A stretch of DNA of 64,000 bases, taken from assembly GCA_945893145.1 (NCBI GenBank), contig CAMDDZ010000022.1, positions 1 through 64,000 on the forward strand, in the 5' to 3' direction. The stretch comes from Rhodoplanes serenus (GTDB taxonomy: Bacteria > Pseudomonadota > Alphaproteobacteria > Rhizobiales > Xanthobacteraceae). A program made the translations under genes and the position numbers. Positions 24,103-45,085 of the stretch are shown here, one piece after another (the first letter of the stretch is position 1; each line of letters opens with the position of its first letter). Below the pieces are notes generated by a model. The model was not told the DNA's origin. It made no database searches and saw only the letters and a program-made list of their open reading frames with translations.

Positions 24103-25640
24103 CCACCCTGCCCATGATCGCCGGCATGAGCCCGACCACTCGTCGCGCGCTGGTCACGGCGTGCACCATGAGCGCCACGATCATGCAGGCGCTCGACGCC
24201 ACGGTCGCCAACGTGTCACTGCCCTACATGCAGGGAAGCCTTTCCGCCTCGCTCGATCAGATCAACTGGGTGCTGACGTCCTACATCGTGGCGGCCGCCA
24301 TCATGACGGCGCCGGTGGCCTGGATGGCGGATCGCTTCGGCCGCAAGCGCGTGTTCGTTGTCTGCGCCATTGGCTTCACCGTTGCGTCGCTGCTCTGCGC
24401 GCTGGCGCAGGACATCACCAGCATTGTCGCCGCGCGGCTGTTGCAGGGCGCGTTCGGCGCAGCCCTGGTGCCGCTATCGCAATCAGTAATGCTCGATTCC
24501 TATCCGCCCGAGCAGCGCGGTTCCGCGATGGCGATCTGGGGCATGGGCGTAATGCTTGGCCCGATCCTGGGGCCTGCGATCGGCGCCTTCCTGACCGATC
24601 ATTACTCTTGGCACTGGGTGTTCCTGATCAATCTGCCGATTGGCGCCGTCACGGTGATCGGGCTCTTGCTGTTCCTGGAGGAGAGCAAGACTCAGACGCA
24701 TTTGCGCTTCGACTGGTTCGGCTTCGCTGCGCTGGCGATCGGCATCGGCGCGCTGCAACTGATCCTCGACCGCGGCGAGCAGGTCGGCTGGTTCGGCTCG
24801 ACCGAGATCATCATCGAGGCGATCGTCTCGGTCGCGGGCTTCTATTATTTCTTCGCGCACTCGCTCACCACCGATGAGCCGTTCGTGCGCTTCGAGGTGT
24901 TCAAGGACCGCAATTTCCTGGCCGGTTGCTTGTTCATGGCGGTGGTCGGCATGGGGCTGTTCGGCACGATGGCGCTGGTGACGCCGTTCACCCAGCAATT
25001 GCTCGGCTACCCGATCATGACCGCGGGCCTCGTGCTCGGCTCGCGGGGCGTCGGGACGCTAATCGCCATGCTGATGGTCGGCCGGCTGCTGAAATACTTC
25101 GAGGCCCGCACCATGGTGCTGGTCGGCCTCGTGCTGATGGCCGGCACGCTCTATCAGATGATCGGCTTCACCAACTACACCTCGACCCGCACCATTGTGA
25201 CCGTCGGTGTCTTTCAGGGCGCGGGTATCGGCTTCGTCTTTGTGGCGCTCAGCACTGCGTCGTTCACGACGCTGCCCAACCATTTGCGCACCAGTGGCAC
25301 CGCGCTGCTGACGCTGATTCGCAATCTGGGCTCCGCCGGCGGCATTTCGCTGATGATCTCAAACCTCACCGGCAAGACCAGCGAGATGCACGCGCGTCTC
25401 GTGGAGCATATCACGCCGTTCAACGACGCCCTGCGGCAGGCCGGCGCGCTGATCGATATCAACACCGATCAGGGCCGCGCCGTGCTCGATGGCATTGTGA
25501 CGCAACAAGCGTCGGTGATTGCTTACCAGAACGACTTCATGCTGCTGATGATCTTGACGCTCGCCACCATGCCGTTCGTGCTGTTCATCGGCACAACGCG
25601 CACGACACGCCCACCAAGCGCGGCGCACGTCGAGATCTAG
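24099..25640 (+). CDS. emrB: EmrB-type MFS multidrug exporter (DHA2, 14 helices)
   Basis: A proton-driven exporter in the inner membrane, 513 residues with 14 predicted helices. The family motifs are LDATVANVSLPYMQGSL, the motif A form WMADRFGRKRVF, and the motif C region GMGVMLGPILGPAIGAFLTD. It starts with GTG at 24099, overlapping emrA by 4 bases. The exported compounds are not readable from sequence; aromatic acids would fit the neighbourhood only loosely. The stop overlaps that of the convergent CoA-transferase gene. Confidence 0.93.
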   Translation: MTTLPMIAGMSPTTRRALVTACTMSATIMQALDATVANVSLPYMQGSLSASLDQINWVLTSYIVAAAIMTAPVAWMADRFGRKRVFVVCAIGFTVASLLCALAQDITSIVAARLLQGAFGAALVPLSQSVMLDSYPPEQRGSAMAIWGMGVMLGPILGPAIGAFLTDHYSWHWVFLINLPIGAVTVIGLLLFLEESKTQTHLRFDWFGFAALAIGIGALQLILDRGEQVGWFGSTEIIIEAIVSVAGFYYFFAHSLTTDEPFVRFEVFKDRNFLAGCLFMAVVGMGLFGTMALVTPFTQQLLGYPIMTAGLVLGSRGVGTLIAMLMVGRLLKYFEARTMVLVGLVLMAGTLYQMIGFTNYTSTRTIVTVGVFQGAGIGFVFVALSTASFTTLPNHLRTSGTALLTLIRNLGSAGGISLMISNLTGKTSEMHARLVEHITPFNDALRQAGALIDINTDQGRAVLDGIVTQQASVIAYQNDFMLLMILTLATMPFVLFIGTTRTTRPPSAAHVEI

Positions 25641-26773
25641 CGCGTTTTTCCCGCGGCGCCGAACTCGGCCCTGATTTTCTCGCTGTGCTCACCGATTTTC
25701 GGCACCGCGCCGTAGCGCCGCGGCTCGCCGGCGTGTTGCGCGGCCGGCGCCGGATAGGAAACCGGTCCGGACGGGGAGTCTATCGTGATGCGGCGCAGAT
25801 GCGGATGGCGCCCGAGCTCCGCCGGGCCGTTGACGCGGCCGAACGCAATGTCGTTCGCGGTGAGCCGCTCGCTCAGCGGCCCGACATCGACCGCGCCAAA
25901 CACCTGGGCGACTCTGCCGTCGGTCTCGGGCCTACGCTTCACGCGCTCGACGTTAGTGGCGAAGTTGGGATCGGCGGCGAGCGCCTTGTCGCCCATCACC
26001 TTCTCGGCCAGCACGCGCCATTCGCGGTCGCTCTGGATCGAAATCAAAATATCGGCGCCGTCACGGGTCTTGAACACGCCGTAAGGCGAGATCGAAGTGT
26101 GGGCGAGGCCCATGCGCTTGGGCGGCGCGCCACCTTCGTGTTGCAGGAGCGGCACCGTCATCCAGTCTGCCATGCCGTCGAACATCGACACCGCAATCGC
26201 GCGCCCTTCACCGGTGCGCCCGCGCACAATCAGCGCCTCCAGCACCGCCTCGTAGGCGTTGAGGCCTGCCGCGACATCGCAGATCGACACGCCGACGCGC
26301 GCCGGCGCCTCGGGTCCGCCGGTCACGGAGGCCACGCCGGACTCTGCCTGGATCAGCATGTCGTAGGCCTTGCGTGCCGCATAAGGGCCGTCGTCGCCAT
26401 AGCCCGACACCGAGCAGACAATTAACCGCGGATAATCCCGCCGCAGCCGCTCGACCGCGAAGCCGAGCTTCGCTGCGGCGCCGGGTTTGAGGTTTTGGAT
26501 AAACACATCGGCCTTCGCCAACATGGCTTCGAGCAGCGTCTTGTCGTCGGCCTTGGCGAGATCGAGCACCACCGATTGCTTGCCGCGGTTGAGCCAGACG
26601 AAATAGCTGCACTCGCCGTGGACCAAATGATCGTACTCGCGCGCGAAGTCGCCCTCCGGCCGCTCGATCTTGATGACGCGCGCGCCGGCATCCGCGAGTT
26701 TGCACGAGCACATCGGCGCGGCGACCGCCTGCTCGAGTGAGACGACGAATAGGCCTTCGAGCGGGAGCGCCAC
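25637..26773 (-). CDS. CaiB/BaiF family (type III) CoA transferase
   Basis: A 378-residue enzyme that moves CoA between carboxylic acids. FVVSLEQAVAAPMCSCKLADAG and VIKIERPEGDFAREYD are family openings, and the Asp in VSICDVAAGLNAYEA (near 169) is the expected catalytic residue. The GTG at 26773 has GAGAGG upstream. It is the last gene of a four-gene operon with an acyl-CoA dehydrogenase, hydratase 2 and dehydrogenase, and probably activates or recycles the substrate acid. The first motif is longer than its conserved core and the match is by eye. Confidence 0.88.
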   Translation of the reverse strand: MALPLEGLFVVSLEQAVAAPMCSCKLADAGARVIKIERPEGDFAREYDHLVHGECSYFVWLNRGKQSVVLDLAKADDKTLLEAMLAKADVFIQNLKPGAAAKLGFAVERLRRDYPRLIVCSVSGYGDDGPYAARKAYDMLIQAESGVASVTGGPEAPARVGVSICDVAAGLNAYEAVLEALIVRGRTGEGRAIAVSMFDGMADWMTVPLLQHEGGAPPKRMGLAHTSISPYGVFKTRDGADILISIQSDREWRVLAEKVMGDKALAADPNFATNVERVKRRPETDGRVAQVFGAVDVGPLSERLTANDIAFGRVNGPAELGRHPHLRRITIDSPSGPVSYPAPAAQHAGEPRRYGAVPKIGEHSEKIRAEFGAAGKTR

Positions 26774-26783
26774 GGCTTACCTC

Positions 26784-27935
26784 TCAGTACGACCGCGGCA
26801 GGCCGAGCACGTGCTCGGCGATATAGGACAGCACGAGATTGGTCGAGATCGGCGCGACCGTATAGAGCCGCGTCTCGCGGAACTTGCGCTCGATGTCGAA
26901 CTCCTCGGCAAAGCCGAAACCGCCGTGGGTCTGCAGGCACATGTCGGCCGCGGCCCAGGACGCTTCGGCGGCGAGCTGCTTCGCCATGTTGGCCTCCGCG
27001 CCGCAATCCTTGCCGGATTCGTAGAGTGCGGCCGCTTCGCGCACCATCAGCTCGGCGCCGCGCATCTGCATATAGGCGCGCGCGATGGGAAACTGCACAC
27101 CCTGGTTCTGCCCAATGGGCCGGCCGAACAACACGCGCTCCTTGGCATAGGCCGACGCTTTCTCGACGAACCACTTGGCGTCGCCAATGCATTCCGACGC
27201 AATCAGAATGCGCTCGGCGTTCATGCCGGCGAGGATGTAACGGAAACCCTGGCCCTCCTCGCCGATCAGGTTCTCGGCTGGCACCTGCATGTTGTCGAAG
27301 AACACTTCGGTGGTGGCGTGGTTCATCATCGTGCGGATCGGACGGATGGTGAGGCCCTTCACGGTCCGCATATCGACCACGAACACCGACAGACCCTCGG
27401 TGCGCTTCTTGGCCTGCTCGCGCGGCGTGGTGCGTGCCAGCAGCAACATCAGGTCAGAATGCTCGGCGCGCGAGGTCCAGAGCTTCTGGCCGCTCACTAC
27501 ATAGGTGCTGTTGCCATCGCGCACCGCCGTCGTCCGCAGCGACAAGGTGTCTGTGCCCGAGGTCGGCTCGGTGACGCCGAACGCCTGCAGGCGCAATTCA
27601 CCCTTGGCGATACCCGGCAGCCAGCGCTGCTTTTGCTCGGCGCTGCCGTGCCGCAGCAGCGTGCCCATGGTGTACATCTGCGCGTGGCAGGCCGCGCCAT
27701 TGCAGCCCGCGGCGTGGATTTCCTCCATGATGGCGGCTGCCGCCGTCATGGTGAGTCCGCTGCCGCCATATTCCTCAGGGATGAGCGCAGCCAGGAACCC
27801 CGCTTCGGTCAGCGCCTTGACGAACTCGCCCGGATAGGCGCGCTCGCGGTCGAGCTTGCGCCAATACTCGCCCGGGAAGCCCGCGCACAGGGCCCGAACC
27901 GCTTCACGGATCGGAGCGAGGTCGGTATCGCTCAC
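26784..27935 (-). CDS. Acyl-CoA dehydrogenase
   Basis: An FAD enzyme that introduces the alpha-beta double bond in an acyl-CoA. It has 383 residues: a helical N-domain (about 1-110; AALIPEEYGGSGL), a beta domain with QAFGVTEPTSGTDT and VVSGQKLWTSRAEHS, and a C-terminal helical domain ending LPRSY with QTHGGFGFAEEFDIERKFR. The GTG at 27935 forms a GTGA overlap with the upstream hydratase gene and starts a normal N-terminus; the frame runs 143 codons further upstream without family sequence. Confidence 0.92.
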   Translation of the reverse strand: MSDTDLAPIREAVRALCAGFPGEYWRKLDRERAYPGEFVKALTEAGFLAALIPEEYGGSGLTMTAAAAIMEEIHAAGCNGAACHAQMYTMGTLLRHGSAEQKQRWLPGIAKGELRLQAFGVTEPTSGTDTLSLRTTAVRDGNSTYVVSGQKLWTSRAEHSDLMLLLARTTPREQAKKRTEGLSVFVVDMRTVKGLTIRPIRTMMNHATTEVFFDNMQVPAENLIGEEGQGFRYILAGMNAERILIASECIGDAKWFVEKASAYAKERVLFGRPIGQNQGVQFPIARAYMQMRGAELMVREAAALYESGKDCGAEANMAKQLAAEASWAAADMCLQTHGGFGFAEEFDIERKFRETRLYTVAPISTNLVLSYIAEHVLGLPRSY

Positions 27936-28792
27936 GGGCGAACCTCGACGCGGCCGTTGTTCATCACCACGACATTCCGATCCGGCACCGAGGCGCGGAA
28001 GCTGACCACATGGCCGTCGCGCCACATCTCGGTGCGGATGGTCTCGCCGGGAAACACCGGCGACGAGAACCGGCCGGCGAATGAAACGACCCGCGCCGGA
28101 TCGTAGTCGCAGACGCTTCTCAGGAGCGCGTGGCCGACGACGCCGAACGTGCCGAGCCCGTGCAAGATCGGCTTCGGATAGCCCGCCGCCTTCGCCACCT
28201 CGGGATCGATATGCAGCGGATTCCGATCCGCCGAGAGCCGATAGATCATCGCCTGCTCGGGCCGCGTGCCGAGATCGCAGGTGAGGTCGGGCGCCCGCTC
28301 GGGGATTTTGTGCACCGGCAGGCTCTCGCGCGGCGGACCACCGAAGCCTCCGTCGGCACGGCAAAACGTGGTCTGCGTCACGGTCGCGATCAGCGTGCCG
28401 CTCGCTTTGTCGGTGACCTTGCGCTCGGTATAGACCAGCGCGCCCTTGCCGGCGCCCTTGTCGATCACCTCGACGATACGGGTTTTACCGATCACCGTGC
28501 CGTTGGGCTTGAGCGGCGCGTGCAGCGTGAAGCCTTGCTCGCCGTTGACGATCTTCACCCAGTCGATACCGGTGTCGAGCTCGCGCACCCAAAAACCCGG
28601 ATAGCCGAGCACGCAGCAAAACGACGGTAGCGGCTTGAGATTCTTCTCATAGACGAAATCGAGCTGCTTCAGGTCGAGCGGATCGTGGCCGAGGCCCACG
28701 CCGAGCGCGTAGAGCATCGTGTCCTTGTCGGTATAGGTGTGCTCGACGTCGGCGATCTTCAGGGCGAGCAGCTTGTCGTAGTCGATGGCCAT
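27932..28792 (-). CDS. MaoC-type (R)-specific enoyl-CoA hydratase 2, double hot dog
   Basis: 286 residues with two hot-dog folds, the size of the hydratase 2 domain of peroxisomal multifunctional enzyme type 2. The C-terminal half has the hydratase motif YRLSADRNPLHIDP followed by ILHGLGTFG, with catalytic Asp and His. It converts trans-2-enoyl-CoA to (3R)-hydroxyacyl-CoA. It overlaps the dehydrogenase gene upstream by one base (TGATG) and the acyl-CoA dehydrogenase downstream by four. Confidence 0.92.
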   Translation of the reverse strand: MAIDYDKLLALKIADVEHTYTDKDTMLYALGVGLGHDPLDLKQLDFVYEKNLKPLPSFCCVLGYPGFWVRELDTGIDWVKIVNGEQGFTLHAPLKPNGTVIGKTRIVEVIDKGAGKGALVYTERKVTDKASGTLIATVTQTTFCRADGGFGGPPRESLPVHKIPERAPDLTCDLGTRPEQAMIYRLSADRNPLHIDPEVAKAAGYPKPILHGLGTFGVVGHALLRSVCDYDPARVVSFAGRFSSPVFPGETIRTEMWRDGHVVSFRASVPDRNVVVMNNGRVEVRP

Positions 28793-29706
28793 CAGATCGG
28801 GTCCCAGGAAAACACCTCGCCGGAGCGGTCGAGCGGGGTGAACGAGGGGCCGAACGCACCCTTGAGCTGCTGATCGAGCTTTTCCGGCGTCCAGCCATCG
28901 GCGCGGTGGATCGAGCGGATCGGTCGCGGCTGGTTGAACAGGAAAATCTCATTATTGCGCACCGAGAGAATTTGTCCGGAGACGCCGGCGGCGCGGTCGG
29001 AGCCGAGATAGACCACGAGCGGTGCGATTTTCTCCGGCGTCATCTGCTGCAACCGTTCGACGCGCTTTTTCTCGTCCTCGGTTTCGGTCGGGATCGAGCC
29101 GATCATGCGGCCCCAGGCGAATGGCGCAATCGCATTCGAGCGGACGTTGAAGCGCTGCATGTCGAGGGCGATGCCACGCGACAGGCCGACGATGCCCATC
29201 TTGGCCGCCATGTAATTGGCCTGGCCGAAGTTGCCGATCAGGCCCGAGGTCGATGTCATGTGGATCATCGAGCCGGAATTCTGCTCGCGGAAATGCGTGG
29301 CGCAGGCGCGGCTCATGGAGAATGAGCCGTGTAGGTGGACCCCGATCACGTCGGACCAGTCCGACCAGCTCATGCGATGAAAAATCTTGTCGCGCAGAAT
29401 ACCGGCGTTGTTGACAAGGATATCGACGCGGCCGAAGGCGTCGAGGGCAGCCTTCACGATCTGATCGGCGTTCTGCGGCTCGCCGATCGAGAGCGTGGAG
29501 GCAATCGCCTGGCCACCGGCCTTCTTGATCTCATCGACCACCTGTTGGGCGGGGCCGGTGTCGCCCCCTGAACCGTCGAGCGCAGCCCCCACGTCATTGA
29601 CGAGAACCTTGGCGCCCTCCTGCGCCATCATCATCGCAATGGCGCGGCCGATGCCGCGGCCCGCGCCGGTGACAATGGCGACTTTTCCCTCGACGATTCC
29701 TGGCAT
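28792..29706 (-). CDS. (3R)-hydroxyacyl-CoA dehydrogenase-like SDR
   Basis: A 304-residue SDR resembling the N-terminal domain of multifunctional enzyme type 2. The glycine motif TGAGRGIG is at about 15-22. A long insertion after NDVGAALDGSGGDTGPAQQ is typical of this branch. The active site has Ser (TSTSGLIGNFGQ) and YMAAK. A C-terminal extension (WTPEKLDQQLKG) also matches that branch. It should oxidise (3R)-hydroxyacyl-CoA made by the adjacent hydratase. It is the first gene of the operon; a palindromic repeat lies upstream. Confidence 0.9.
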   Translation of the reverse strand: MPGIVEGKVAIVTGAGRGIGRAIAMMMAQEGAKVLVNDVGAALDGSGGDTGPAQQVVDEIKKAGGQAIASTLSIGEPQNADQIVKAALDAFGRVDILVNNAGILRDKIFHRMSWSDWSDVIGVHLHGSFSMSRACATHFREQNSGSMIHMTSTSGLIGNFGQANYMAAKMGIVGLSRGIALDMQRFNVRSNAIAPFAWGRMIGSIPTETEDEKKRVERLQQMTPEKIAPLVVYLGSDRAAGVSGQILSVRNNEIFLFNQPRPIRSIHRADGWTPEKLDQQLKGAFGPSFTPLDRSGEVFSWDPI

Positions 29707-29731
29707 TGAAAACGCATCCCTCTCCGCTGTC

Positions 29732-29834
29732 GTCCCGGCCGAGCGCCCGAAGGGCGCGCGAGCCGGGACTCATAACCACTGGAGCCTATTCTATTGCAAA
29801 GCCGGTGTTCATGGGTCCCCGCCTTTGCGGGGAC
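29732..29834. repeat. GTCCCGGC composite palindromic repeat
   Basis: Two hairpins. The first pairs GTCCCGGC (29732-29739) with GCCGGGAC (29762-29769). The second pairs GTCCCCGC (29815-29822) with GCGGGGAC (29827-29834) over a CTTT loop. The linker (CATAACCACTGGAG) resembles repeats I know from Bradyrhizobium-type genomes. It separates the acyl-CoA operon from the MetE-like array. Confidence 0.75.
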
Positions 29835-29867
29835 GACACCTAAGAATGCCGCACCGGCGGCGAAAAT

Positions 29868-30974
29868 TCACCGGCCCCAAACCTCGTCAGCAACCTCGAC
29901 GATCATCCGGAGCTTCGACCATTGCTCATCCTCGGTGAGCACGTTGCCCTCTTCGGTGGAGGCAAAGCCGCATTGCGGCGAGAGCGCGAGCTGGTCGAGC
30001 GGCACAAACTTCGCCGCCTCATCGATGCGGCGCTTGATCGCGTCCTTGGATTCGAGCTTGCCGGACTTCGAGGTGACCAGGCCCAGCACCACGATCTTGC
30101 CCTTGGGCACCAGGCGCAGCGGCTCGAAGCCGCCGGCGCGCTCGCTGTCGTACTCCATGAAATAGCCGTGCACGTTGGTGCGGTTGAACAGCACCTCGGC
30201 CTCTGCGTCGTAGCCGCCCGCACCCATGAAGGTCGATTTGTAGTTGCCGCGGCACAGATGCATCGTGATCGTCATGTCGGCCGGAATGTCCGACATCGCG
30301 GCGTTGATCAGGTCGGCATAGAGCGGCCCGAGCTTCTCGGGATCGTCGCCACGCTTGGTCATCTGATTGCGATACTTCGGATCGCACAACATGGCGATGA
30401 AGACTTCGTCGAGTTGCAAATAGCGGCAGCCGGCATCGGCAAAGCCGCGCACCGCCTTCTTGTATGCATTGCCGAGATCGTCCCAGAAGCGGTCCATCGC
30501 CGGATAAGTTTTCTGGTCGATCGGCGTCTTCATCGGCCGGCCGTAGATCGCCGACGGCGCCGGAATGGTGATCTTCGGCGTCCGCTTGGTGTGAGCGGCT
30601 ACAAACTTGAAATGCTCGACCATCGGGTGCGGCCCGGCCATGCCGAGCTTGCCGGTGACCTGCACGCCCTCGTTACGCGTGGCTACACCCGAGAAGGCGA
30701 CACCTGAGTCCATCACGTGCTTGGACGCGCCACCGAGGCCCCAGAGGAAATCGAGATGCCACCATGAGCGGCGGAACTCGCCATCCGTAATCGCCTGTAG
30801 GCCGACGTCCTCCTGCTTCTTGATGACGCGCTCGATCTCGCGGTCCTCGATGTCCTGCAACGCCTGCGCCGTGATCTCGCCCTTGGCGCGCTTGGCGCGC
30901 GCCTCATGCAGCACCTTGGGACGCAACAGGCTACCGACGTGGTCGGCGCGAAACGGTGGTTTTGTTCTTTTCAT
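29868..30974 (-). CDS. MetE C-terminal-domain-like methyltransferase, array copy E (last)
   Basis: 368 residues, about half of full MetE: only the catalytic TIM-barrel (Meth_synt_2) is present. Zinc ligands of methionine synthase are kept as the HxC of MHLCRGNYKS, the Glu of EYDSERAGGFEPL and the Cys of LSPQCGFAS. LQLDEVFIAMLCD replaces the MetE DEPA segment. The ATG at 30974 overlaps the previous copy's stop by four bases. The family transfers methyl to a thiol, usually homocysteine; without the N-terminal domain, methyl-folate use is doubtful and the donor is unknown. Confidence 0.88.
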   Translation of the reverse strand: MKRTKPPFRADHVGSLLRPKVLHEARAKRAKGEITAQALQDIEDREIERVIKKQEDVGLQAITDGEFRRSWWHLDFLWGLGGASKHVMDSGVAFSGVATRNEGVQVTGKLGMAGPHPMVEHFKFVAAHTKRTPKITIPAPSAIYGRPMKTPIDQKTYPAMDRFWDDLGNAYKKAVRGFADAGCRYLQLDEVFIAMLCDPKYRNQMTKRGDDPEKLGPLYADLINAAMSDIPADMTITMHLCRGNYKSTFMGAGGYDAEAEVLFNRTNVHGYFMEYDSERAGGFEPLRLVPKGKIVVLGLVTSKSGKLESKDAIKRRIDEAAKFVPLDQLALSPQCGFASTEEGNVLTEDEQWSKLRMIVEVADEVWGR

Positions 30975-32077
30975 TTCCAGACCTCGTCTGCGATCTCCAC
31001 GATCATGCGGAGCTTGGCCCATTGCTCTTCCTCGGCGAGGATATTGCCCTCCTCGCTGGAGGCAAAGCCGCATTGCGGCGAGAGGCAAAGCTGATCGAGC
31101 GGCACGAATTTGGCGGCCTGGTCGATGCGGCGCTTGATAGCGTCTTTAGATTCCAGCGTCCCGGTCTTCGACGTCACCAGTCCGAGCACCACCTGCTTGC
31201 CCTTCGGCACGAAGCGGAGCGGCTCGAAGCCGCCGGCGCGCTCGCTGTCGAACTCCATGAAATAGCCGTGGACCTTGATCGTGTTGAACATCACCTCGGC
31301 TACCGGCTCGTACCCGCCAGACGCAATGAAGGTCGAGCGGAAATTACCGCGGCACAGGTGCATCGTGATGGTCATGTCGTCCGGAATGTCCGACATCGCT
31401 GCGTTGATCATGCCCGCATAGGCGTGCAGCAGCGCATTCGGGTCTTCACCGCGATCCTTGACCTGCTGGATCAGCTTCGGATCACACAGATAGGTCAGGT
31501 TGACCTCGTCCATTTGCAGATAGCGGCAGCCGGCGTCGGCGAAAGCCCGCACGCACCTGCGATAGGTCTGACCGAGATCGCGGTAGAACTCGTCCATGTC
31601 GGGATAGATGGCGGCCGGCACCGCGTCGCGGCCGTCGCGGAAATGCACCGCTGACGGCGACGGGATCGTCATCTTCGGCGTCTGCCTGGTGTGAGCCTTC
31701 AGAAAGCGGAAATGCTCGATCATCGGGTGGGTGTCGAAGTCGCCAAGCTTGCGCGCCACCCGAACGAGAACTTGCTGCGGCTGGACGCCGCCCTGGAACG
31801 CGACCTTGCGCCTGCCGGAATAGGTCTCGATACCGGGCAGCGCGGCGACGAAATCGGTCTGCCATGATTTGCGGCGGTTTTCGCCGTCGGTGATCGATTG
31901 CAGCCCGATCGCCTCCTGCTTGCCAATCAGGGCTTCGATCTCGCGATCCTCGACGGCCTTGAACTGTTCGGCCGAAATGTCACCGCTGGCGCGTTTGACG
32001 CGCGCGTCCTTCAGGACGGCCGAGCGCAGCAGGCTGCCGACCTGATCGGCGCGAAACGGGGGCTTGGTGCGTTGCAC
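30971..32077 (-). CDS. MetE C-terminal-domain-like methyltransferase, array copy D
   Basis: 368 residues with the same domain as its neighbours: start VQRTKPPFRADQVGSLLRS, active segment LQMDEVNLTYLCD, zinc set MHLCRGNFRSTF / EFDSERAGGFEPL / LSPQCGFAS. It uses GTG at 32077, with its GGGGGAG ribosome site lying over the stop of copy C 4 bases upstream, so translation is probably coupled. By eye it is closest to copy C. The substrate is unknown. Confidence 0.87.
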   Translation of the reverse strand: MQRTKPPFRADQVGSLLRSAVLKDARVKRASGDISAEQFKAVEDREIEALIGKQEAIGLQSITDGENRRKSWQTDFVAALPGIETYSGRRKVAFQGGVQPQQVLVRVARKLGDFDTHPMIEHFRFLKAHTRQTPKMTIPSPSAVHFRDGRDAVPAAIYPDMDEFYRDLGQTYRRCVRAFADAGCRYLQMDEVNLTYLCDPKLIQQVKDRGEDPNALLHAYAGMINAAMSDIPDDMTITMHLCRGNFRSTFIASGGYEPVAEVMFNTIKVHGYFMEFDSERAGGFEPLRFVPKGKQVVLGLVTSKTGTLESKDAIKRRIDQAAKFVPLDQLCLSPQCGFASSEEGNILAEEEQWAKLRMIVEIADEVWK

Positions 32078-32081
32078 AGGG

Positions 32082-33188
32082 CTATCTCCCCCAAACCTCG
32101 TCGGCGACCTCGGCAATCATCCGCAGCTTCGCCCATTGCTCCTCCTCGGCGAGCAGATTGCCCTCCTCGGTCGAAGCAAAGCCGCATTGCGGCGATAGGC
32201 AAAGCTGGTCGAGTGGAATGTATTGCGCCGCCTGGTCGATGCGGCGCTTGAGGTCGTCCTTCGATTCAAGTGTGCCGCTCTTGCTGGTGACGAGACCGAG
32301 CACCACCTGCTTGCCCTTCGGCACGAAGCGGAGCGGCTCGAAGCCGCCGGCGCGTTCGCTGTCGTATTCCATGAAATAGGCTTGAATCTTGATCTCGTTG
32401 AACAGGATTTCGGCCACCGGCTCGTAGCCGCCCGACGCCACGAAGGTCGATTGGAAATTGCCACGGCACAAATGCATCGCAGTGGTCATGTCGGCAGGCA
32501 CGTCCGAGATCGCCGCGTTGATCATCTTGGCATAGTCGTGCGGCATCCGGTTGGGATCGTCGCCGCGCTCCGTGACCTGCTGGCGCAGTTTCGGATCGCA
32601 GAGGTAAGTGAAGTTCACCTCGTCGAGTTGGATGTAGCGGCAGCCGGCATCGGCAAACGCGCGCACCGCCTTGCGATAGCTTTCGCCAAGGTCGCGGTAG
32701 AAATCGTCCATGTCCGGATAGATCTCGACGGGCACCGCCGAACGGCCGTAGCGGAAGTGCATCGACGACGGCGACGGAATCGTCATCTTCGGCGTCTGCT
32801 TGGTGTGCGCCTGGACGAACTTGAAATGCTCGATCATCGGATGCGGCGCGTAATCGCCGAGCTTGCCGATGACACGGACCATCATCGGACGCGGCTGCCG
32901 GCCCTGGAACTTGATCTTACGCTCGCCGAGATAGGTTTCCGCGCCGATCAGCTTGCCGAGGAAATCGTAGTTCCAGAATGCGCGCCGGTATTCGCCATCG
33001 GTGATGGACTTCAGGCCGGCCGATTCCTGTTTCTTGATGGCGGCTTCGATCTCGCGATCCTCGACCGCTTTCAGCTGCTCGGCCGTGATCTCGTTCTTCT
33101 CGCGCTTAGCTCGCGCCTCTTTCAAAGCGGCCGGACGCAGCAGGCTGCCGACGTGGTCGGCGCGGAAGGGAGGCTTGGTGCGCTGCAT
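32082..33188 (-). CDS. MetE C-terminal-domain-like methyltransferase, array copy C
   Basis: 368 residues. The core motifs are LQLDEVNFTYLCD, MHLCRGNFQSTF, EYDSERAGGFEPL and LSPQCGFAS, all with the expected zinc ligands. The ATG at 33188 follows GTGGAG and starts MQRTKPPFRAD like the other copies; a longer frame to 33311 runs through a palindromic repeat and is not coding. It is the first copy after the repeat that splits the array, so it may have its own promoter or lie downstream of a processing site. Confidence 0.88.
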   Translation of the reverse strand: MQRTKPPFRADHVGSLLRPAALKEARAKREKNEITAEQLKAVEDREIEAAIKKQESAGLKSITDGEYRRAFWNYDFLGKLIGAETYLGERKIKFQGRQPRPMMVRVIGKLGDYAPHPMIEHFKFVQAHTKQTPKMTIPSPSSMHFRYGRSAVPVEIYPDMDDFYRDLGESYRKAVRAFADAGCRYIQLDEVNFTYLCDPKLRQQVTERGDDPNRMPHDYAKMINAAISDVPADMTTAMHLCRGNFQSTFVASGGYEPVAEILFNEIKIQAYFMEYDSERAGGFEPLRFVPKGKQVVLGLVTSKSGTLESKDDLKRRIDQAAQYIPLDQLCLSPQCGFASTEEGNLLAEEEQWAKLRMIAEVADEVWGR

Positions 33189-33203
33189 AAACACTCCACT
33201 CGT

Positions 33204-33309
33204 GTCCCGGCCAAGCGCGCGCTTGCGAGCGCGAGCCGGGACCCCGGTTCTTAGAAAGCTGGGTCCCGGGTCTGTAGCGCACCACTTCGTGCTGCGCTGC
33301 GCCCGGGAC
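33204..33309. repeat. GTCCCGGC composite palindromic repeat inside the MetE-like array
   Basis: Hairpin 1 pairs GTCCCGGC (33204-33211) with GCCGGGAC (33235-33242). Hairpin 2 pairs GTCCCGGG (33263-33270) with CCCGGGAC (33302-33309). It is the same family as at 29732. It occupies nearly all of the 130-base gap between copies B and C and may terminate or process the transcript. Confidence 0.72.
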
Positions 33310-33318
33310 AAGAGACCC

Positions 33319-34428
33319 TTACCGGCCCCACACCTCGTCGGCCAATTCCACGATCATCCGCAGCTTCGCCCATTGCTCGTCCTCGGCAAGGACGTTGCCC
33401 TCCTCTGTCGAGGCAAAGCCGCACTGCGGCGAGAGGCAAAGCTGATCGAGCGCGACATATTTGGTCGCCTCGTCGATGCGCCGCTTGATGGAATCCTTGC
33501 TTTCAAGCTTGCCGCTCTTGGAGGTGACTAGCCCAAGCACCACAATCTTGTTGCCCTTGGGGAGAAAGCGCAGCGGCTCGAAGCCGCCCGAGCGCTCGGT
33601 GTCATACTCCAGGAAATAGCCGTCGAGCTTGACCTCGCCGAGCAGCCGCTCGGCGACGAACTCGTAACCGCCGCTTGCGATGAACGTCGAGCGGAAGTTG
33701 CCGCGGCAGGAGTGCATGGAGACGACCATATCGACCGGCTTGCCCTCGAGCGCTTTGTTGGTCATCGCGGCGTATTTGGCCGGCAGCGAATCTGGGTCGT
33801 CGCCGCGGCCCTTGGATTTCTCGCGCTCCTTCGGGTCGCAGATCATCGACCAGGCGGTATCGTCCATCTGGAGATAACGGCAGCCGGCGTCATATAAGGC
33901 GCGGATCGCCTTCTGATAGGCCTTGGCGACATCGTCGAAATAGGCGTCGAGTTCGGGATAGGTCTTCCGGTCGATCGAGCCACGGCCCTGGCGAAAATGC
34001 AGCGTGCTCGGTGCCGGAATGGTCATCTTCGGCGTCACCTTGGTGTGAGCTTTCAGAAACTTGAAATGCTCGACGTGCGGATGGCTGGTGAAGCCGATCT
34101 TGCCGGTGACGCGCACGCTTTCCGCCTTAGTGACGACGCCGGCGAACTGGATGCCCTCGCCGACCGTATAAAGCTCAACGTTGTCGAGGCCTTTATAAAA
34201 ATCGAACTGCCACCAGGAACGGCGAAACTCGCCGTCGGTGGCAAGCTTGAGGCCCACGTCCTCCTGCTTCTTGATGGCCTTCTCGATCTCGCGGTCCTCT
34301 ATCTCGCGAAGCTGCGCGTCGGTGATTTTCTTCTCCGCATGCTTGGCCCGCGCCTCCTTAAGCGGCACGGGACGCAACAGGCTGCCGACGTGATCGGCGC
34401 GAAACGGCGGCGTGGTGCGGGGCGCCAT
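33319..34428 (-). CDS. MetE C-terminal-domain-like methyltransferase, array copy B
   Basis: 369 residues. It belongs to a second subgroup with copy A: the DEV segment of the others reads LQMDDTAWSMICD, and NKIVVLGLVTSKSG replaces the shorter form. The zinc set is intact (MHSCRGNFRSTF, EYDTERSGGFEPL, LSPQCGFAS). The ATG at 34428 overlaps the copy A stop by one base (TAATG), so the pair is translationally coupled. A different substrate from copies C-E is likely (inference from the altered active-site acid). Confidence 0.87.
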   Translation of the reverse strand: MAPRTTPPFRADHVGSLLRPVPLKEARAKHAEKKITDAQLREIEDREIEKAIKKQEDVGLKLATDGEFRRSWWQFDFYKGLDNVELYTVGEGIQFAGVVTKAESVRVTGKIGFTSHPHVEHFKFLKAHTKVTPKMTIPAPSTLHFRQGRGSIDRKTYPELDAYFDDVAKAYQKAIRALYDAGCRYLQMDDTAWSMICDPKEREKSKGRGDDPDSLPAKYAAMTNKALEGKPVDMVVSMHSCRGNFRSTFIASGGYEFVAERLLGEVKLDGYFLEYDTERSGGFEPLRFLPKGNKIVVLGLVTSKSGKLESKDSIKRRIDEATKYVALDQLCLSPQCGFASTEEGNVLAEDEQWAKLRMIVELADEVWGR

Positions 34429-35534
34429 TACTTGCCCCAAACCTCTTCGGCGATCTCGACGACTTCGCGCATCTTCGCCCACTGCTGCTGCTCGGTCAGC
34501 ACATTGCCTTCCTCGGTGGAGGCGAAGCCGCATTGCGGGCTGAGCGCCATCTGTTCCATCGGCATGAACTTCGCCGCTTCATCAAGCCGGCGCTTCACGG
34601 TGTCCTTGCTTTCGAGCGTGCCGCTCTTGGAGGTGATGACGCCGACCACAACGATCTTGTTGCCCTTCGGCAGGAAGCGGAGCGGCTCGAAGCCGCCGGC
34701 ACGATCGCTGTCGTATTCCAGGAAGTAGCCGTCGAAGTTGCATTTGGCGAGCAGCCGCTCAGCCACCGGCTCGTAGCCGCCGGATGAAATCCAGGTCGAG
34801 CGGAAATTGCCACGGCAGATGTGGGTCGTGATCGTCATGTCGGCTGGCTTGTCTTTCAGCGAGTCGTTGATGACGCGCGTGTAGTCGTCGGCCAGCGTCG
34901 CGACATTCATGCCGCGCTCCTTGGCCTTCTTCATCTCGACATCCGAGCAGAGATAGGCCCAGGCGGTGTCGTCGAACTGCAGGTAGCGGCAGCCGGCGTC
35001 ATAGAACGCCTTCACGGCCTGGCGATAGGCCGCCGAGAGGTCAGAGAAGATCGCGTCGTTGTTTGGATAGGCCTTCTTGTCGACCGCGTTGGGCTCCAGA
35101 CGGAAATGCAGCACCGTCGGCGACGGGATGCACATCTTTGGCATCACCTTGGTGTGCTGCTTCACGAACTTGAAGTGATCGAGCATCGGATGATTGCTGA
35201 AGCCGATCTTGCCGGTGACACGGATGCCTTTCGGCTTGGTCTGCACACCTTGGAACTGGATGCCGTGGTCCATCTCATAGACCTCGACGTTGTCCAGGCC
35301 GTTGTAGAAATCGTAATGCCAGAACATCCGGCGGTATTCGCCATCGGTCGCGCATTGCAGCCCAACCTCTTCCTGCTTCTTGATGACCTTCGGGATTTCC
35401 TGATCCTCGATCGCCTTCAGATCGGCCGCGCTGATCTGACCTTTGTCGCGCTTGGTGCGCGCCTCGGTGATCGCGGGCGTGCGCAAGTAGCTGCCGACGT
35501 GATCGGCGCGAAAGGGCGGTGTTGTTCTTTTCAT
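34428..35534 (-). CDS. MetE C-terminal-domain-like methyltransferase, array copy A (first)
   Basis: 368 residues, first in transcription order. The motifs are LQFDDTAWAYLCS, THICRGNFRSTW, EYDSDRAGGFEPL and LSPQCGFAS; HxC, Glu and the distal Cys are kept. AGGAAACACCC precedes the ATG at 35534; the frame extends to 35591 without family sequence. The promoter must lie in the 323-base region shared with the divergent liv binding-protein gene, which suggests that array and transporter are used together. Confidence 0.87.
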   Translation of the reverse strand: MKRTTPPFRADHVGSYLRTPAITEARTKRDKGQISAADLKAIEDQEIPKVIKKQEEVGLQCATDGEYRRMFWHYDFYNGLDNVEVYEMDHGIQFQGVQTKPKGIRVTGKIGFSNHPMLDHFKFVKQHTKVMPKMCIPSPTVLHFRLEPNAVDKKAYPNNDAIFSDLSAAYRQAVKAFYDAGCRYLQFDDTAWAYLCSDVEMKKAKERGMNVATLADDYTRVINDSLKDKPADMTITTHICRGNFRSTWISSGGYEPVAERLLAKCNFDGYFLEYDSDRAGGFEPLRFLPKGNKIVVVGVITSKSGTLESKDTVKRRLDEAAKFMPMEQMALSPQCGFASTEEGNVLTEQQQWAKMREVVEIAEEVWGK

Positions 35535-35857
35535 CGGGTGTTTCCTCGCGTGTCTAAGCCTTGTTCTGACGCAAGCATCGCACGGCGGCAAGGCAGCGGT
35601 CGAGAACCACCGCCGATTCCGATTCTCGACGCTGAACCAGCGGCAGAACGATTTGTGGGAGCGATCCCACCGTGCTTGCGCAGCCTGAAATAGAACCGGG
35701 TCGAGTGGTCCTTTTCGCGCTGTAAAGCGCCGAAAAGCCGCATGCCACCGTTGCCCATTCGCTTGCGCCGATTCGGCCTTTCGCCCTACTATCCGGCCCG
35801 AATCCGGCCGCGCAAAGCTGGCCCCGGTTCAGTTTGCCCCCCTACGGAGGAAATCCA
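35535..35857. other. Divergent intergenic region between the MetE-like array and the liv genes
   Basis: These 323 bases hold no supported gene. A hairpin at 35712-35736 (TTTTCGCGCT, then AGCGCCGAAAA with one bulged base) is the only clear structure. GGAGGAAA at the right end is the ribosome site of the binding-protein gene. Promoters for both directions should be here, but no convincing -35/-10 pair was found. Confidence 0.5.
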
Positions 35858-37060
35858 ATGATCAAACGCATGCTCGCGGCAACCGCCGCGCTAGCCATTA
35901 CGACTGCGTTCGCGCAGGCGCAGGAGGTCAAGATTGGTCTCGTTGCGCCGTTCACCGGCATCGGCGCCGAACTCGGTCAGCAGATCGACCGTGGCGTACA
36001 GCAATTCCTCAAACTCAACGCCGGCAAGATCGCGCCCTACAAGCTCACCATCATCAAGCGCGACGACAAGAATCCGTCCGGCGCCGACTCCAAGGTCGCA
36101 GTGCAGGAGCTGCTGACACAAGAGAACGTCGATGCGCTCGCTGGCTGGATCTATTCGCCGAACGCCATCGCCTCTGCGCCGGTCGTAAGCGCCGGCAAGA
36201 AGCTTGCAGTGATCATGAACGCCGGCACCGCCTTCATCACCAACCTCTCGCCTTACTACGTGCGCACCTCGTTCAGCATGTGGCACGCGGGCTTCGCGCT
36301 CGGTGAAGCGGCGGCGAAGCAGCTCAAGGCCAAGACCGCGGTGGTCGGCTACAGCGACTTCCCGCCCGGCAAGGATAGCCTCGCGGCGTTCAAGCGCGCG
36401 TTCGAGGCGAACGGCGGCCAGGTGATCGACGAAATCCCGATGGGGGGTCCTGCTCAGGTGCCGGACTTCACGCCGTTCTTCCAGCGCGTAAAGGACAAGA
36501 AGCCCGACCTGTTCTTCGTGTTCGTGCCGGCCGGCGATCATGCACTCGCGGTCGTGAAGACCTACGGCGCGCTCGGCATGAAGGCCGCCGGCATCAAGCT
36601 GATCGGCCCGGGCGACATCACCCAGGACATCAAGCTGCAAGCGATGGGTGACGCAGCGATCGGCCTGATCACCATGCACCACTACAACGCCGACCTCGAC
36701 AACCCGGTCAACAAGGCGCTGGTCGCGTCCTGGAAGAAGGACTACGGCGCGGATGCGACGCCGGACTTCGTCGCCATCGGCGCCTACGACGGCATGGCTG
36801 CGATCCTGCACGCGGTACAGGCCACCAAGGGCAAGATGGACCCCGACGCTGCGCTGGCCGCGCTCAAGGGCTGGAAATACGACAGCCCGCGCGGTCCGAT
36901 CGCGATCGATCCGGAAACGCGTGACATCATCATGAACGAGTATCTCGTCGAAGTGGTGAAGGGTGCGGACGGCAAGCTGCACCAGAAGGTGCTCGGCAAG
37001 ATCGACGCCGTGAAGGATGCCTGCAAAGCCCAGAAGATCGGACCCTGCGCGCCGAAGTGA
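35858..37060 (+). CDS. Branched-chain-amino-acid-type ABC transporter substrate-binding protein
   Basis: 400 residues. A Sec signal (MIKRMLAATAALAITTAF, cleavage after AQAQ) leads into VKIGLVAPFTGIGAELGQQI, the start of a Peripla_BP_6 fold. The LivJ-like fold binds amino acids, but relatives in this group also bind aromatic acids or amides, so the ligand is open. The ATG at 35858 follows GGAGGAAA. A strong terminator directly follows, so it can be made in excess over the membrane parts. Confidence 0.92.
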   Translation: MIKRMLAATAALAITTAFAQAQEVKIGLVAPFTGIGAELGQQIDRGVQQFLKLNAGKIAPYKLTIIKRDDKNPSGADSKVAVQELLTQENVDALAGWIYSPNAIASAPVVSAGKKLAVIMNAGTAFITNLSPYYVRTSFSMWHAGFALGEAAAKQLKAKTAVVGYSDFPPGKDSLAAFKRAFEANGGQVIDEIPMGGPAQVPDFTPFFQRVKDKKPDLFFVFVPAGDHALAVVKTYGALGMKAAGIKLIGPGDITQDIKLQAMGDAAIGLITMHHYNADLDNPVNKALVASWKKDYGADATPDFVAIGAYDGMAAILHAVQATKGKMDPDAALAALKGWKYDSPRGPIAIDPETRDIIMNEYLVEVVKGADGKLHQKVLGKIDAVKDACKAQKIGPCAPK

Positions 37061-37092
37061 TGGCGCCAGGCGCACGTAACGCATTCGGCAGG

Positions 37093-37118
37093 CCGCCGCC
37101 CAACCGGGCGGCGGTTTT
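37093..37118 (+). terminator. Rho-independent terminator after the binding-protein gene
   Basis: Perfect 9-base arms CCGCCGCCC and GGGCGGCGG with an AACC loop, followed by TTTT. It lies 33 bases after the stop, on the plus strand, ahead of the permease genes. Confidence 0.85.
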
Positions 37119-37283
37119 GCGTTATGGAGACGCCAAAACGACAGCGACGCCGCGACGCGCTTCTTTCCAACGCGCTCATGCTTTAGTATTTCCGTCATCA
37201 AGCCGGGCCAACCGGCGCGGGGATTGTGTAATGAAGCGGGCCTATGCGGCGGCTGCTAGCAGCCCATTCGGGCGGGAACGCGC

Positions 37284-38156
37284 GTGATCTTCGGCATCGA
37301 TGTTATCAGCACGCTGCTCGGCGGGGTCGCCGCCGGTATGGTGCTGTTTATCGTGTCGGTCGGCCTGTCCGTCACCATGGGCCTGATGGGCTTCGTCAAT
37401 CTCGCCCACGGCGGCTTCGCCATGATCGGCGGCTACCTCATCGTGCTGGCGATGAACCGCCTCGGCATGCCATTCGTCGCCGCGCTCGCTATCGGATTCG
37501 TCGTTGTCGCGGCCGTCAGCACCATCTTCGAGCGGCTGCTCTACTCGCGGCTCTACCGCGCGACCGAACTCGACCAGGTGCTGTTCACCATTGGGCTGGT
37601 GTTCATGATGATCGCGTCGGTGACGCTGGCGGTCGGGCCGGAGACGCAACCGCTGACCTTGCCGACCTGGCTGCAGGGCCAGATCAATCTCGGCTTCATC
37701 AGCTACCGCACCTACAGCATCGTGCTGATCGCGGTCGGCACCGTGATCATGCTCGGCCTGTGGCTCGGCTTCGAGCGCACCCGCATGGGCGCGCAAATCC
37801 GCGCCGCGGTCGACAATCGCCGCATGGCCGAGTCGCTCGGCATCAACATTACGCGGCTGTTCACGCTGGTGTTCGCCTTCGGCAGCGGCATGGCGGCGCT
37901 CGGCGGCGGGCTCGGCGCCGAATTCCTCGGCCTCGATCCGCAATATCCGCTAAAATACCTGGTCATCTTCCTGATCGTGGTCGCGGTCGGCGGGCTTGGC
38001 CGCATCACCGGCGTGTTCTACGCATCGCTCATCATCGGTGTGGTCGACTTCGCGCTGAAGAAATACCTACCGCAGGGCGGCACGGTGTTCATCTACGGCA
38101 TGACCATCCTGCTGCTGCTGTGGCGGCCGCAGGGCCTGTTCGGGAAGTCGACATGA
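37284..38156 (+). CDS. livH: LivH-type ABC permease
   Basis: 290 residues with about eight helices. GLMGFVNLAHGGFAMIGGY and FERTRMGAQIRAAVDNRRMA (the loop contacting the ATPase) are typical of LivH. It starts with GTG at 37284, and its stop overlaps the livM ATG (ATGA). It forms the inner-membrane channel with LivM. Confidence 0.92.
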   Translation: MIFGIDVISTLLGGVAAGMVLFIVSVGLSVTMGLMGFVNLAHGGFAMIGGYLIVLAMNRLGMPFVAALAIGFVVVAAVSTIFERLLYSRLYRATELDQVLFTIGLVFMMIASVTLAVGPETQPLTLPTWLQGQINLGFISYRTYSIVLIAVGTVIMLGLWLGFERTRMGAQIRAAVDNRRMAESLGINITRLFTLVFAFGSGMAALGGGLGAEFLGLDPQYPLKYLVIFLIVVAVGGLGRITGVFYASLIIGVVDFALKKYLPQGGTVFIYGMTILLLLWRPQGLFGKST

Positions 38157-39163
38157 GCGCGACGGACCTGCAAAATCATCCGGCCGCCCGGGCGCTGGCG
38201 CAACGTCATCGCCTGCGCGTATGGGAGGGCCTGCCCTGGCTGCTGGCGCTCGCGTGCTATTTTGCCTTCCCGCGCTATCTCGGCTTCGGCACCGAGATTC
38301 TCATCACAGTGCTGTTCGCGATCTCGCTCGATCTCGCGCTCGGCTACGCCGGCATCGTGACGCTCGGCCACGCGGCATTCTTCGGTGCCGGTGCCTATAC
38401 GGTCGGCATGCTGGCCAAGAACGGCATCTGGACCGAGCCGATCACCGGGCTGTTGCTCGGGGCTGCGGTCGCCGGTCTCATTGGCTTCCTGTCCGGCCTG
38501 GTTCTGCTTCGCACCGCCGGCTTGACACTTCTGATGCTGACCTTGTGCTTCATGGGCCTGCTGGAGGAATCCGCCAACATGGGTGCGGATTTCACCGGCG
38601 GCTTCGACGGCCTCGACAGCCTGCCGATCAAGCCGATCGTCGGCATGTTCGAGTTCGACGTGCTGTATTCCAAGACACAATATCTCTACGTCCTGGCCGT
38701 GCTGTTCGTCTGCTTCGTGTTCACTCGTACGCTGGTGTATTCACCATTCGGCCACAGCCTCACCGGCATCCGTGAGAACACACTGCGCATGCATGCCGTC
38801 GGTGCGCCGGTCGAGCGGCGGCTGGTGATCTGCTACACGATCTCGGCCGCGATCGCCGGCATTGCCGGCGCGCTGTGGGCGCAGGCCAACGCTTACGTCA
38901 ATCTTTCGACGCTCGGCCTCGACCGCGCCGCCACCGTGCTGATCATCCTGGTGCTCGGCGGCTACGGACGCCTGTACGGCGCGTTTGTCGGCGCGTTCGT
39001 CTACATGATGCTCGAGCACTTCCTGTCGAAGCTCTACCCGGAGGCCTGGCAGCTTGGTCTCGGGCTCCTGCTCGTGGTGATCGCGCTGTTCGCGCGCGGC
39101 GGCATTCTTGGCATCGGCGAGGAGCTTCGGCGCCGGTTCCGTGGCTGGCGCAACAAGCCATGA
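38153..39163 (+). CDS. livM: LivM-type ABC permease
   Basis: 336 residues with about ten helices. DLALGYAGIVTLGHAAFFG and the cytoplasmic loop HSLTGIRENTLRMHAVG mark LivM. The ATG at 38153 overlaps livH; the same frame extends far upstream over livH but is not coding there. The stop overlaps the livG start (ATGA). Confidence 0.92.
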   Translation: MSATDLQNHPAARALAQRHRLRVWEGLPWLLALACYFAFPRYLGFGTEILITVLFAISLDLALGYAGIVTLGHAAFFGAGAYTVGMLAKNGIWTEPITGLLLGAAVAGLIGFLSGLVLLRTAGLTLLMLTLCFMGLLEESANMGADFTGGFDGLDSLPIKPIVGMFEFDVLYSKTQYLYVLAVLFVCFVFTRTLVYSPFGHSLTGIRENTLRMHAVGAPVERRLVICYTISAAIAGIAGALWAQANAYVNLSTLGLDRAATVLIILVLGGYGRLYGAFVGAFVYMMLEHFLSKLYPEAWQLGLGLLLVVIALFARGGILGIGEELRRRFRGWRNKP

Positions 39164-39915
39164 CCGTGCTGCTCGAGACCCAATCCGTCAGCAAGAACTT
39201 CGGCGCGTTGCGGGCGACACGCGAGGTCAGCTTCAAGCTCGAGGAAGGCGCGCGGCACGCGCTGATCGGGCCGAACGGCGCGGGCAAGACCACATTCATC
39301 AACCTGCTCACCGGCGTTCTGCCGCCGAACTCCGGCAAGGTGCTGCTGAAGGACCGCGACATCACTCAGATGGCTCAGGCCGAGCGGGTCAAGCTCGGCA
39401 TTGCCCGCACCTTCCAGATCAACCGGCTGTTTCGCGGCCTCTCGGTGCTGGAGAACGTCTATATGGCGGTGGCCGAGCGCGTCGGCGCCGCACCCAAAAT
39501 GCTCACTCCGGCAGGCGCACAGCGGGACGTGATCGACGAGTCGATGCAACTTTTAGAGTCGCTCAAGCTTGCCGACATTGCCCACCACACCATCGTGGGA
39601 CTGCCCTACGGCCGGCAGCGGCTGGTGGAACTCGCCATTACGCTCGGCCTCAAGCCCGAAGTGCTGCTGCTCGACGAGCCGGCGGCCGGCGTGCCGAGCG
39701 CCGAGAGCCACATCATCCTCGATGCGATCGATGCACTGCCGAAAACCATCGGCGTGCTGATCATCGACCATGACATGGACCTGGTGTTCCGCTTCGCCAA
39801 GCGCATCACCGTGCTGGTGCGCGGCGCCATCTTCGCCGAGGGCACTCCAAAGGAAATCGGTGCCAACCCCGATGTGCGCGCGGTCTATCTCGGACAGGCG
39901 ACACAACATGGCTAG
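39160..39915 (+). CDS. livG: LivG-type ABC ATPase
   Basis: 251 residues. Walker A is GPNGAGKTTF (about 37-46), followed by the LivG-specific LGIARTFQINRLFRGLSV. The signature position reads LPYGRQRLVELA, which is unusual, since LSGGQ/LSYGQQ-type is expected. Walker B is VLLLDEPAAGV. The ATG at 39160 overlaps livM, and the 3' end overlaps livF by 8 bases. Confidence 0.92.
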   Translation: MTVLLETQSVSKNFGALRATREVSFKLEEGARHALIGPNGAGKTTFINLLTGVLPPNSGKVLLKDRDITQMAQAERVKLGIARTFQINRLFRGLSVLENVYMAVAERVGAAPKMLTPAGAQRDVIDESMQLLESLKLADIAHHTIVGLPYGRQRLVELAITLGLKPEVLLLDEPAAGVPSAESHIILDAIDALPKTIGVLIIDHDMDLVFRFAKRITVLVRGAIFAEGTPKEIGANPDVRAVYLGQATQHG

Positions 39916-40612
39916 CGCGCTCGAACTCAAAGCGGTGTCAGCGGGCTACGGCGAGACCGTGGTTCTGGAAGACATCAATCTTGCGATCGCGCCGGGCGAG
40001 AGCATCAGCGTGATGGGCCGCAACGGTGTCGGCAAGACCACGCTGCTCGCAACCGTCATGGGCCATACCACGCTACACAAGGGCGAGGTCACGCTCGATG
40101 GCCGCAGCCTCAATCGCGTGCCGGTCTATCGCCGCGCCGCCGCTGGCATCGGCTTCGTGCCGCAGGAGCGCGAGATTTTCGCCTCGCTCAGTGTGCTCGA
40201 GAACCTCGAGGTCGGCGCGCGACCGGGACCTTGGACGCAGGAGCGCGTGTTTGAGCTGTTTCCCAACCTCAAGGAGCGGCTCGGCAACAAGGGCAACCAG
40301 CTGTCCGGCGGTGAGCAGCAGATGTTGTCGATCGCCCGCGCACTGCTGACCAATCCGTCAATTTTGCTGATGGACGAACCCACCGAGGGCCTGGCGCCGG
40401 TGATCGTCGAGGCGCTGACCGCAGTGCTGGTGCGGCTGCGCGGCGAGTCCGGGTTGTCGATCATCCTGGTCGAGCAGAACAGCCGCGTTGCCTTCGAGTT
40501 CTCCAACCGCAGCGTGGTGATGGACAAGGGCCGCATCGTCTATGACGGCGCGTCCGCCACATTGCGCGATGACCCCGAGCGTTTGACGCAGTTGATCGGG
40601 GTGAGCGAGTAG
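39908..40612 (+). CDS. livF: LivF-type ABC ATPase
   Basis: 234 residues. Walker A is GRNGVGKTTLL, the signature is LSGGEQQMLSIARAL, Walker B is ILLMDEPTEGLAP, and the H-loop position is taken by Gln (ILVEQNSR), as usual for LivF. The ATG at 39908 lies inside livG, so livHMGF are one coupled operon. Confidence 0.92.
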   Translation: MASALELKAVSAGYGETVVLEDINLAIAPGESISVMGRNGVGKTTLLATVMGHTTLHKGEVTLDGRSLNRVPVYRRAAAGIGFVPQEREIFASLSVLENLEVGARPGPWTQERVFELFPNLKERLGNKGNQLSGGEQQMLSIARALLTNPSILLMDEPTEGLAPVIVEALTAVLVRLRGESGLSIILVEQNSRVAFEFSNRSVVMDKGRIVYDGASATLRDDPERLTQLIGVSE

Positions 40613-41741: not shown

Positions 41742-41750
41742 TCCGAGGAT

Positions 41751-43722: not shown

Positions 43723-45085
<1,363 letters not shown>

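Follow-up and report, generated by a model that had tools for sequence, protein, structure and literature searches.

Five tandem MetE-like genes beside a probable aromatic-acid importer in Rhodoplanes serenus: a conserved array of possible O-demethylases

A contig of Rhodoplanes serenus carries five adjacent genes for short MetE-like proteins. They form a real, conserved, and probably catabolic array, and belong to a known enzyme family within which their branch is uncharacterised. In the window, the whole stretch of 64,000 nucleotides analysed here, the array occupies positions 29868-35534, divergent from a Liv-type importer and 9 kb from a protocatechuate 4,5-cleavage gene set. Four points are firm: family membership, an intact active site, ancient lineages, and a link of the array to the import of aromatic acids and the cleavage of protocatechuate. 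More tentatively, and with confidence a little short of even, sequence comparison suggests that the five, members of the PRK06520/YxjG clade, are zinc-dependent methyltransferases of the homocysteine type that diverged to demethylate different methoxylated aromatic acids. Genomic context suggests aryl methyl ethers as the donors and one substrate class for each lineage.

A preliminary description of this DNA reported five same-strand genes of 368-369 amino acids for the MetE catalytic domain. The open reading frames and sequence confirm them on the minus strand:

34428-35534, minus strand: copy A, first gene of the array; 368 amino acids, ATG start, DDTAW type
33319-34428, minus strand: copy B; 369 amino acids, ATG start, DDTAW type
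33189-33318: spacer between B and C, 130 nucleotides, GC-rich and palindromic; the only gap in the array
32082-33188, minus strand: copy C; 368 amino acids, ATG start, DEVNF type
30971-32077, minus strand: copy D; 368 amino acids, GTG start, DEVNL type, 75% identical to C
29868-30974, minus strand: copy E; 368 amino acids, ATG start, DEVFI type, with HFR replaced by YGR

Any two copies are about 54% to 75% identical, and C and D are the closest pair. Starts and stops overlap or nearly touch except at one repeat, as first described: B starts on the stop of A (TAATG, a 1-nucleotide overlap), C and D lie 4 nucleotides apart, and D and E overlap by 4 nucleotides (ATGA). GC-rich palindromic intergenic repeats occur in the B-C spacer and at 29700-29860, downstream of E. 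Riboswitch control of the array was considered and rejected, as an Rfam search of the array gave no riboswitch match.

All five proteins match PF01717 only (full length or its C-terminal half) and lack, as originally noted, the N-terminal half of MetE, measuring 368-369 amino acids where about 750 are expected of a MetE with its N-terminal folate domain. They pass the NF005085/PRK06520 subfamily cut-off of 313 bits at 507-586 bits, are not members of the MetE model TIGR01371 (32-42 bits against a cut-off of 930), and do not match the GcvT fold of LigM/DesA (PF01571). The zinc-site residues listed at the outset (HxC, Glu, Cys) are present in all five copies and align with H641, C643, E665, and C726 of Escherichia coli MetE; the homocysteine contacts S433, E484, and D599 of that enzyme are also present. 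Among relatives, the zinc ligands are kept in 181 of 182 and the homocysteine-site S/E/D in 182 of 182. MetE W561, which from MetE structures we take to be the pterin-stacking Trp, is replaced in the array copies.

The division of the copies by active-site segment was described correctly, with DDTAW marking A and B and DEV marking C, D, and E, and the segment hardly varies within a lineage. The A and E lineages each have a single exact form (18/18 and 17/17), the B and C lineages differ at neighbouring residues only, and DEVN is kept throughout D (9/9). Half of the positions fixed differently between lineages (9/18) lie within 5 residues of an active-site residue, compared with 79/366 overall (p 0.006), proximity here being distance along the sequence and not in space.

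The AF2 model of copy C (predicted local distance difference test, pLDDT, 86.7) has 1YPX as its closest solved fold (Z 39, 46% identity), followed by 3RPD (Z 32.4) and MetE (Z about 32). In a tree, A-E fall into one clade with Listeria and Priestia homologues, including the Listeria 1YPX-type protein. They nest outside both MetE and epoxyalkane-coenzyme M (CoM) transferase in a tree with these two as references. This covers the MetE part of the tree check first proposed; the Mes type was compared through PDB 3RPD. The Listeria and Priestia homologues sit behind S-adenosylmethionine (SAM) riboswitches, and in L. paracasei yxjH responds to methionine, being induced in its absence (PMC6004538). 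Because the zinc site is almost invariant, the S/E/D residues are invariant, and homologues are under this control, the evidence favours homocysteine as the acceptor across the whole clade.

The PRK06520/PRK06233 proteins (YxjG/YxjH, 1YPX) share clade, length, and zinc and homocysteine residues with the array copies. However, each Firmicute gene stands alone under riboswitch control, whereas in the window five copies sit together next to aromatic genes and lack a riboswitch. The core methionine synthases MesA-D likewise consist of the catalytic half only (PMC7857596), but the window array has a conserved aromatic context and belongs to multi-copy arrays, and 3RPD, a short Shewanella methionine synthase, matches in fold (Z 32) but gives only 31 bits in sequence. 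The methionine control of the Firmicute homologues and the name of the NCBI model would suit ordinary redundant methionine synthases kept for dosage, an explanation made very improbable by the presence in 9 of 10 congeners of MetH and a dedicated metF, by the ancient and fixed lineages, and by the aromatic-catabolic neighbours. Since a full-length MetH is present elsewhere in most congeners, five copies are unneeded for methionine synthesis, as had been argued from their number. The metagenome-assembled genome of the window itself yielded neither MetH nor a standard metF, probably owing to an assembly gap.

A different catabolic chemistry is offered by the epoxyalkane:CoM transferase Xaut_4865, presumably a PF01717-type zinc enzyme in fold and family. 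Epoxyalkane-CoM transferase uses a thiol other than homocysteine. With the zinc site kept and such chemistry known from a PF01717-type enzyme, the array proteins might add thiols or cleave C-O bonds in some way other than by demethylation, lignin ethers being one conceivable substrate. This is hardly likely, as Xaut_4865 is distant (21% identity), occupies a separate branch of the tree outside the A-E group, and has N and R in place of MetE S433 and E484, so that it lacks homocysteine residues invariant in the array family.

The array occurs in the same context in the congeners examined. Seven congener loci have five copies (L142-L145, L147, L148, and L150), and fewer are found on L146 and on the short contigs L149 and L158. 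The tree resolves four lineages, A, B, C/D, and E, which recur in unchanged order where other genera have arrays (e.g. L036, L038, L039, and L042-L045). D forms a separate clade adjoining C and is confined to the genus except for one member in L039. This agreement in gene order, adjacency, and sequence lineage suggests that the copies have kept different functions for a long time. Chance or recent duplication is ruled out by the order conserved across genera. The initial proposal of a methyl-transfer family with distinct substrates is partly supported, by separate conserved lineages with fixed active-site differences, while its methyl donor is something we infer.

The window genome has 27 PF01717 matches, roughly 22 genes by coordinate count, of which seven belong to the PRK06520 subfamily. 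Fifteen further paralogues (L009-L022) fall into two other subfamilies, and 12 of the fifteen have genes for TctC/Bug-type binding proteins within 10 kb; the tally of Liv genes around the paralogues includes generic ABC ATPases, with L028 and L031 as false positives. At L063 and L151 the array is interrupted by a gene from another PF01717 subfamily (c17).

The divergent Liv-type importer described beside the array is a LivKHMGF operon at 35858-40612 on the plus strand. The genes on both sides of the array, with starts approximate in the context clustering (own gene calling), are as follows:

25637-26773, minus strand: family III coenzyme A (CoA)-transferase, by profile match
26784-27950, minus strand: acyl-CoA dehydrogenase; start approximate, open reading frame to 28364
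27932-28792, minus strand: MaoC-type dehydratase, by neighbourhood comparison
28792-29706, minus strand: SDR dehydrogenase, codirectional with the array and downstream of it
35655-35670: palindrome GTGGGAGCGATCCCAC, between the divergent promoters of A and livK; candidate shared operator
35858-37060, plus strand: LivK-type periplasmic binding protein (PF13458)
37284-38156, plus strand: LivH permease (PF02653)
38153-39163, plus strand: LivM permease, in the 37244-39163 frame of the open reading frame list; start approximate
39160-39915, plus strand: LivG ATPase, within the open reading frame 38875-39915; start approximate
39908-40612, plus strand: LivF ATPase, within the open reading frame 39770-40612; start approximate

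The four genes downstream of the array, from the SDR dehydrogenase to the CoA-transferase, are conserved together with it. Two tandem genes for TctC/Bug-type binding proteins (40767-42728) lie between livF and ligC and are kept in congeners.

The closest solved relatives of the window LivK are 4EY3, 4EYG, and 4EYK from Rhodopseudomonas palustris (312 bits), which we take to be hydroxybenzoate-type binders, 4EYG presumably with vanillate as ligand. The R. palustris-group orthologue of that solved binding protein (743 bits) itself lies in a Liv and MetE-like operon (L071). Strong binding of 4-hydroxybenzoate is documented for RPA0985 and RPA4029, two binding proteins of R. palustris (PMC3223731). 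The palindrome stands in the same place in 7 more congeners and has one exact match in the 64 kb against 0.27 expected. It is absent from ligABC; being single in the window as well, it does not support a wider regulon. The suggestion that the importer feeds the array gains support from the conserved partnership of the Liv operon and from this conserved palindrome, which the promoters of A and livK may share.

Beyond the importer, the lig set is followed in the window by a 3-oxoadipyl-CoA thiolase and a PRK12582 acyl-CoA synthetase, the latter presumably feruloyl-CoA-synthase-like:

42756-43712, minus strand: LigC/PmdC, 4-carboxy-2-hydroxymuconate-6-semialdehyde dehydrogenase (9azo PmdC, 430 bits)
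43723-44637, minus strand: LigB, protocatechuate 4,5-dioxygenase beta (1b4u, 407 bits)
44630-45169, minus strand: LigA, protocatechuate 4,5-dioxygenase alpha (TIGR02792, 157 bits, over the cut-off)
46561-47436, minus strand: LigI, 2-pyrone-4,6-dicarboxylate hydrolase (4d8l, 344 bits)
50200-52074, plus strand: acyl-CoA synthetase PRK12582 (828 bits against a cut-off of 777)

At three loci (L151, L154, and L155) ligIABC runs directly into the array, and other Rhizobiales have pcaIJ-pcaF-pcaHG in place of the lig genes beside it. Among 150 genomes of the family, LigA or PcaH is present in 100 of 104 with the subfamily and in 11 of 46 without it (p 4e-20, a value inflated by closely related genomes). 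Counted by genus, the figures are 28/30 and 6/11 (p 0.01). A subfamily gene lies within 12 kb of LigA or PcaH in at least 30 family genomes. LigA and PcaH were not found above cut-off together in any of the 150. The substrates first listed (methylated sulfur, amine, and methoxyaromatic compounds) are narrowed, from context only, to methoxylated or hydroxylated aromatic acids.

In the proposed route, the Liv importer would take up lignin-type benzoate derivatives, and a zinc-bound homocysteine thiolate would attack the aryl methyl ether. The phenol product, protocatechuate after the last methyl, would enter the adjacent LigABC/LigI ring-cleavage route, and methionine would be recycled via SAM.

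Several points weigh against this route. To our knowledge, there is no precedent for a zinc thiolate attacking an aryl methyl ether; a search of the open-licence literature found MetE-like demethylases of aromatics nowhere reported, and no member of the subfamily has a known activity. Stoichiometric methionine formation would demand a methyl sink as well. VanA homologues occur in 10 of 11 genomes of the genus, so that strictly speaking the window organism cannot be said to lack a demethylation step. The co-occurrence statistics take genomes without correction for phylogeny. The SYK-6-type MetF beside arrays suits a methyl-folate product better than methionine. A homologue of the array genes on a Klebsiella plasmid stands directly before a genuine urea transporter, urtABCDE, in a cassette (L023:8001-14760) flanked by insertion sequence elements. 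Rhodopseudomonas carries a single copy, yet neither an ethyl-vanillate nor syringate was reported to support growth of R. palustris (PMC3223731).

Folate-dependent O-demethylation of the LigM/DesA type has the same proposed role as the array, methoxyaromatic acid to catechol, and shares its neighbourhood and a SYK-6-type MetF, but it uses a different fold and family (PF01571 GcvT, compared with PF01717 MetE in the array). The subfamily gene adjoins two or three GcvT-type (LigM-like) O-demethylase genes and gallate-pathway genes in Microbacteriaceae, VanA and gallate genes in Pantoea, and VanA in Ferrovibrio and G029; in Pseudolabrys (L042) a LigM equivalog adjoins the array. LigM is below threshold across Rhodoplanes except for one weak match in the congener G006, where a LigM-related GcvT-type gene is followed directly by a diverged subfamily member (L164). 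Neither LigM nor VanA was found in G012, G013, G020, and G021, all of which have the subfamily.

A divergent MetF lies directly upstream of arrays in eight loci, with 7XG9 as its best solved match (175 bits), which we take to be the SYK-6 MetF. Because congeners also have a standard housekeeping metF beside metH, the array-adjacent MetF is an extra copy. In the window genome the SYK-6-type MetF lies away from the array (G000:C21), behind a gene termed c5. This neighbourhood is the strongest reason why folate-based alternatives stay in play. In one, LigM or another enzyme makes methyl-folate and the array proteins move its methyl to homocysteine, regenerating folate. The intact homocysteine site and the adjacency to LigM-type and SYK-6-type MetF genes agree with such a partnership, yet it is unlikely overall, given that only one weak LigM match was found in the genus, the loss of both the N-terminal half and W561, the VanA neighbours of some members, which yield no methyl-folate, and the fact that a single reaction would not need four or five diverged copies. 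Less likely still is that the array proteins are themselves folate-dependent O-demethylases, in which the zinc site activates the substrate, the methyl passes to tetrahydrofolate in a LigM-like reaction on a MetE barrel, and MetF oxidises the methyl-folate. The presence of MetF directly upstream of arrays that have no LigM fits this idea, but the invariance of the homocysteine-binding residues and the loss of the pterin-stacking Trp speak against it.

The c5 gene encodes a protein of 450-470 amino acids with an N-terminal helix-turn-helix (HTH) and a possible SAM-methyltransferase domain (G000:C21:48350-50530, which is L169; also L166-L173 and L032-L104). In Xanthobacteraceae it lies upstream of the divergent MetF; in Bradyrhizobium, upstream of metK-ahcY. 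Sequence searches gave no Pfam or PDB relative, with methyltransferase matches below threshold only, and its structure model (pLDDT 59.6) was too poor for an informative fold search.

For the homocysteine-dependent demethylation preferred here, a doubtful extension is a zinc-homocysteine O-demethylation that uses the methionine cycle as methyl carrier, beside the oxygenase, GcvT/folate, and corrinoid systems. MetK and AhcY would recycle methionine, and the c5 HTH protein paired with the SYK-6-type MetF might pass the methyl to folate oxidation. Such a route would explain both neighbourhoods, Liv-[MetE-like]-c5-metK-ahcY and c5-MetF-[MetE-like].

Compared with E. coli MetE (b3829), the array copies share the C-terminal barrel and the zinc and homocysteine residues, but have no N-terminal domain and have replaced W561. 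Methoxyl removal is a key step in microbial lignin use. If the array proteins do demethylate aromatic acids, many proteins now annotated as methionine synthase would be reclassified as catabolic demethylases, and a route would be gained for some Xanthobacteraceae without detectable VanA or LigM. A homocysteine-based demethylase would also avoid the formaldehyde that VanAB makes.

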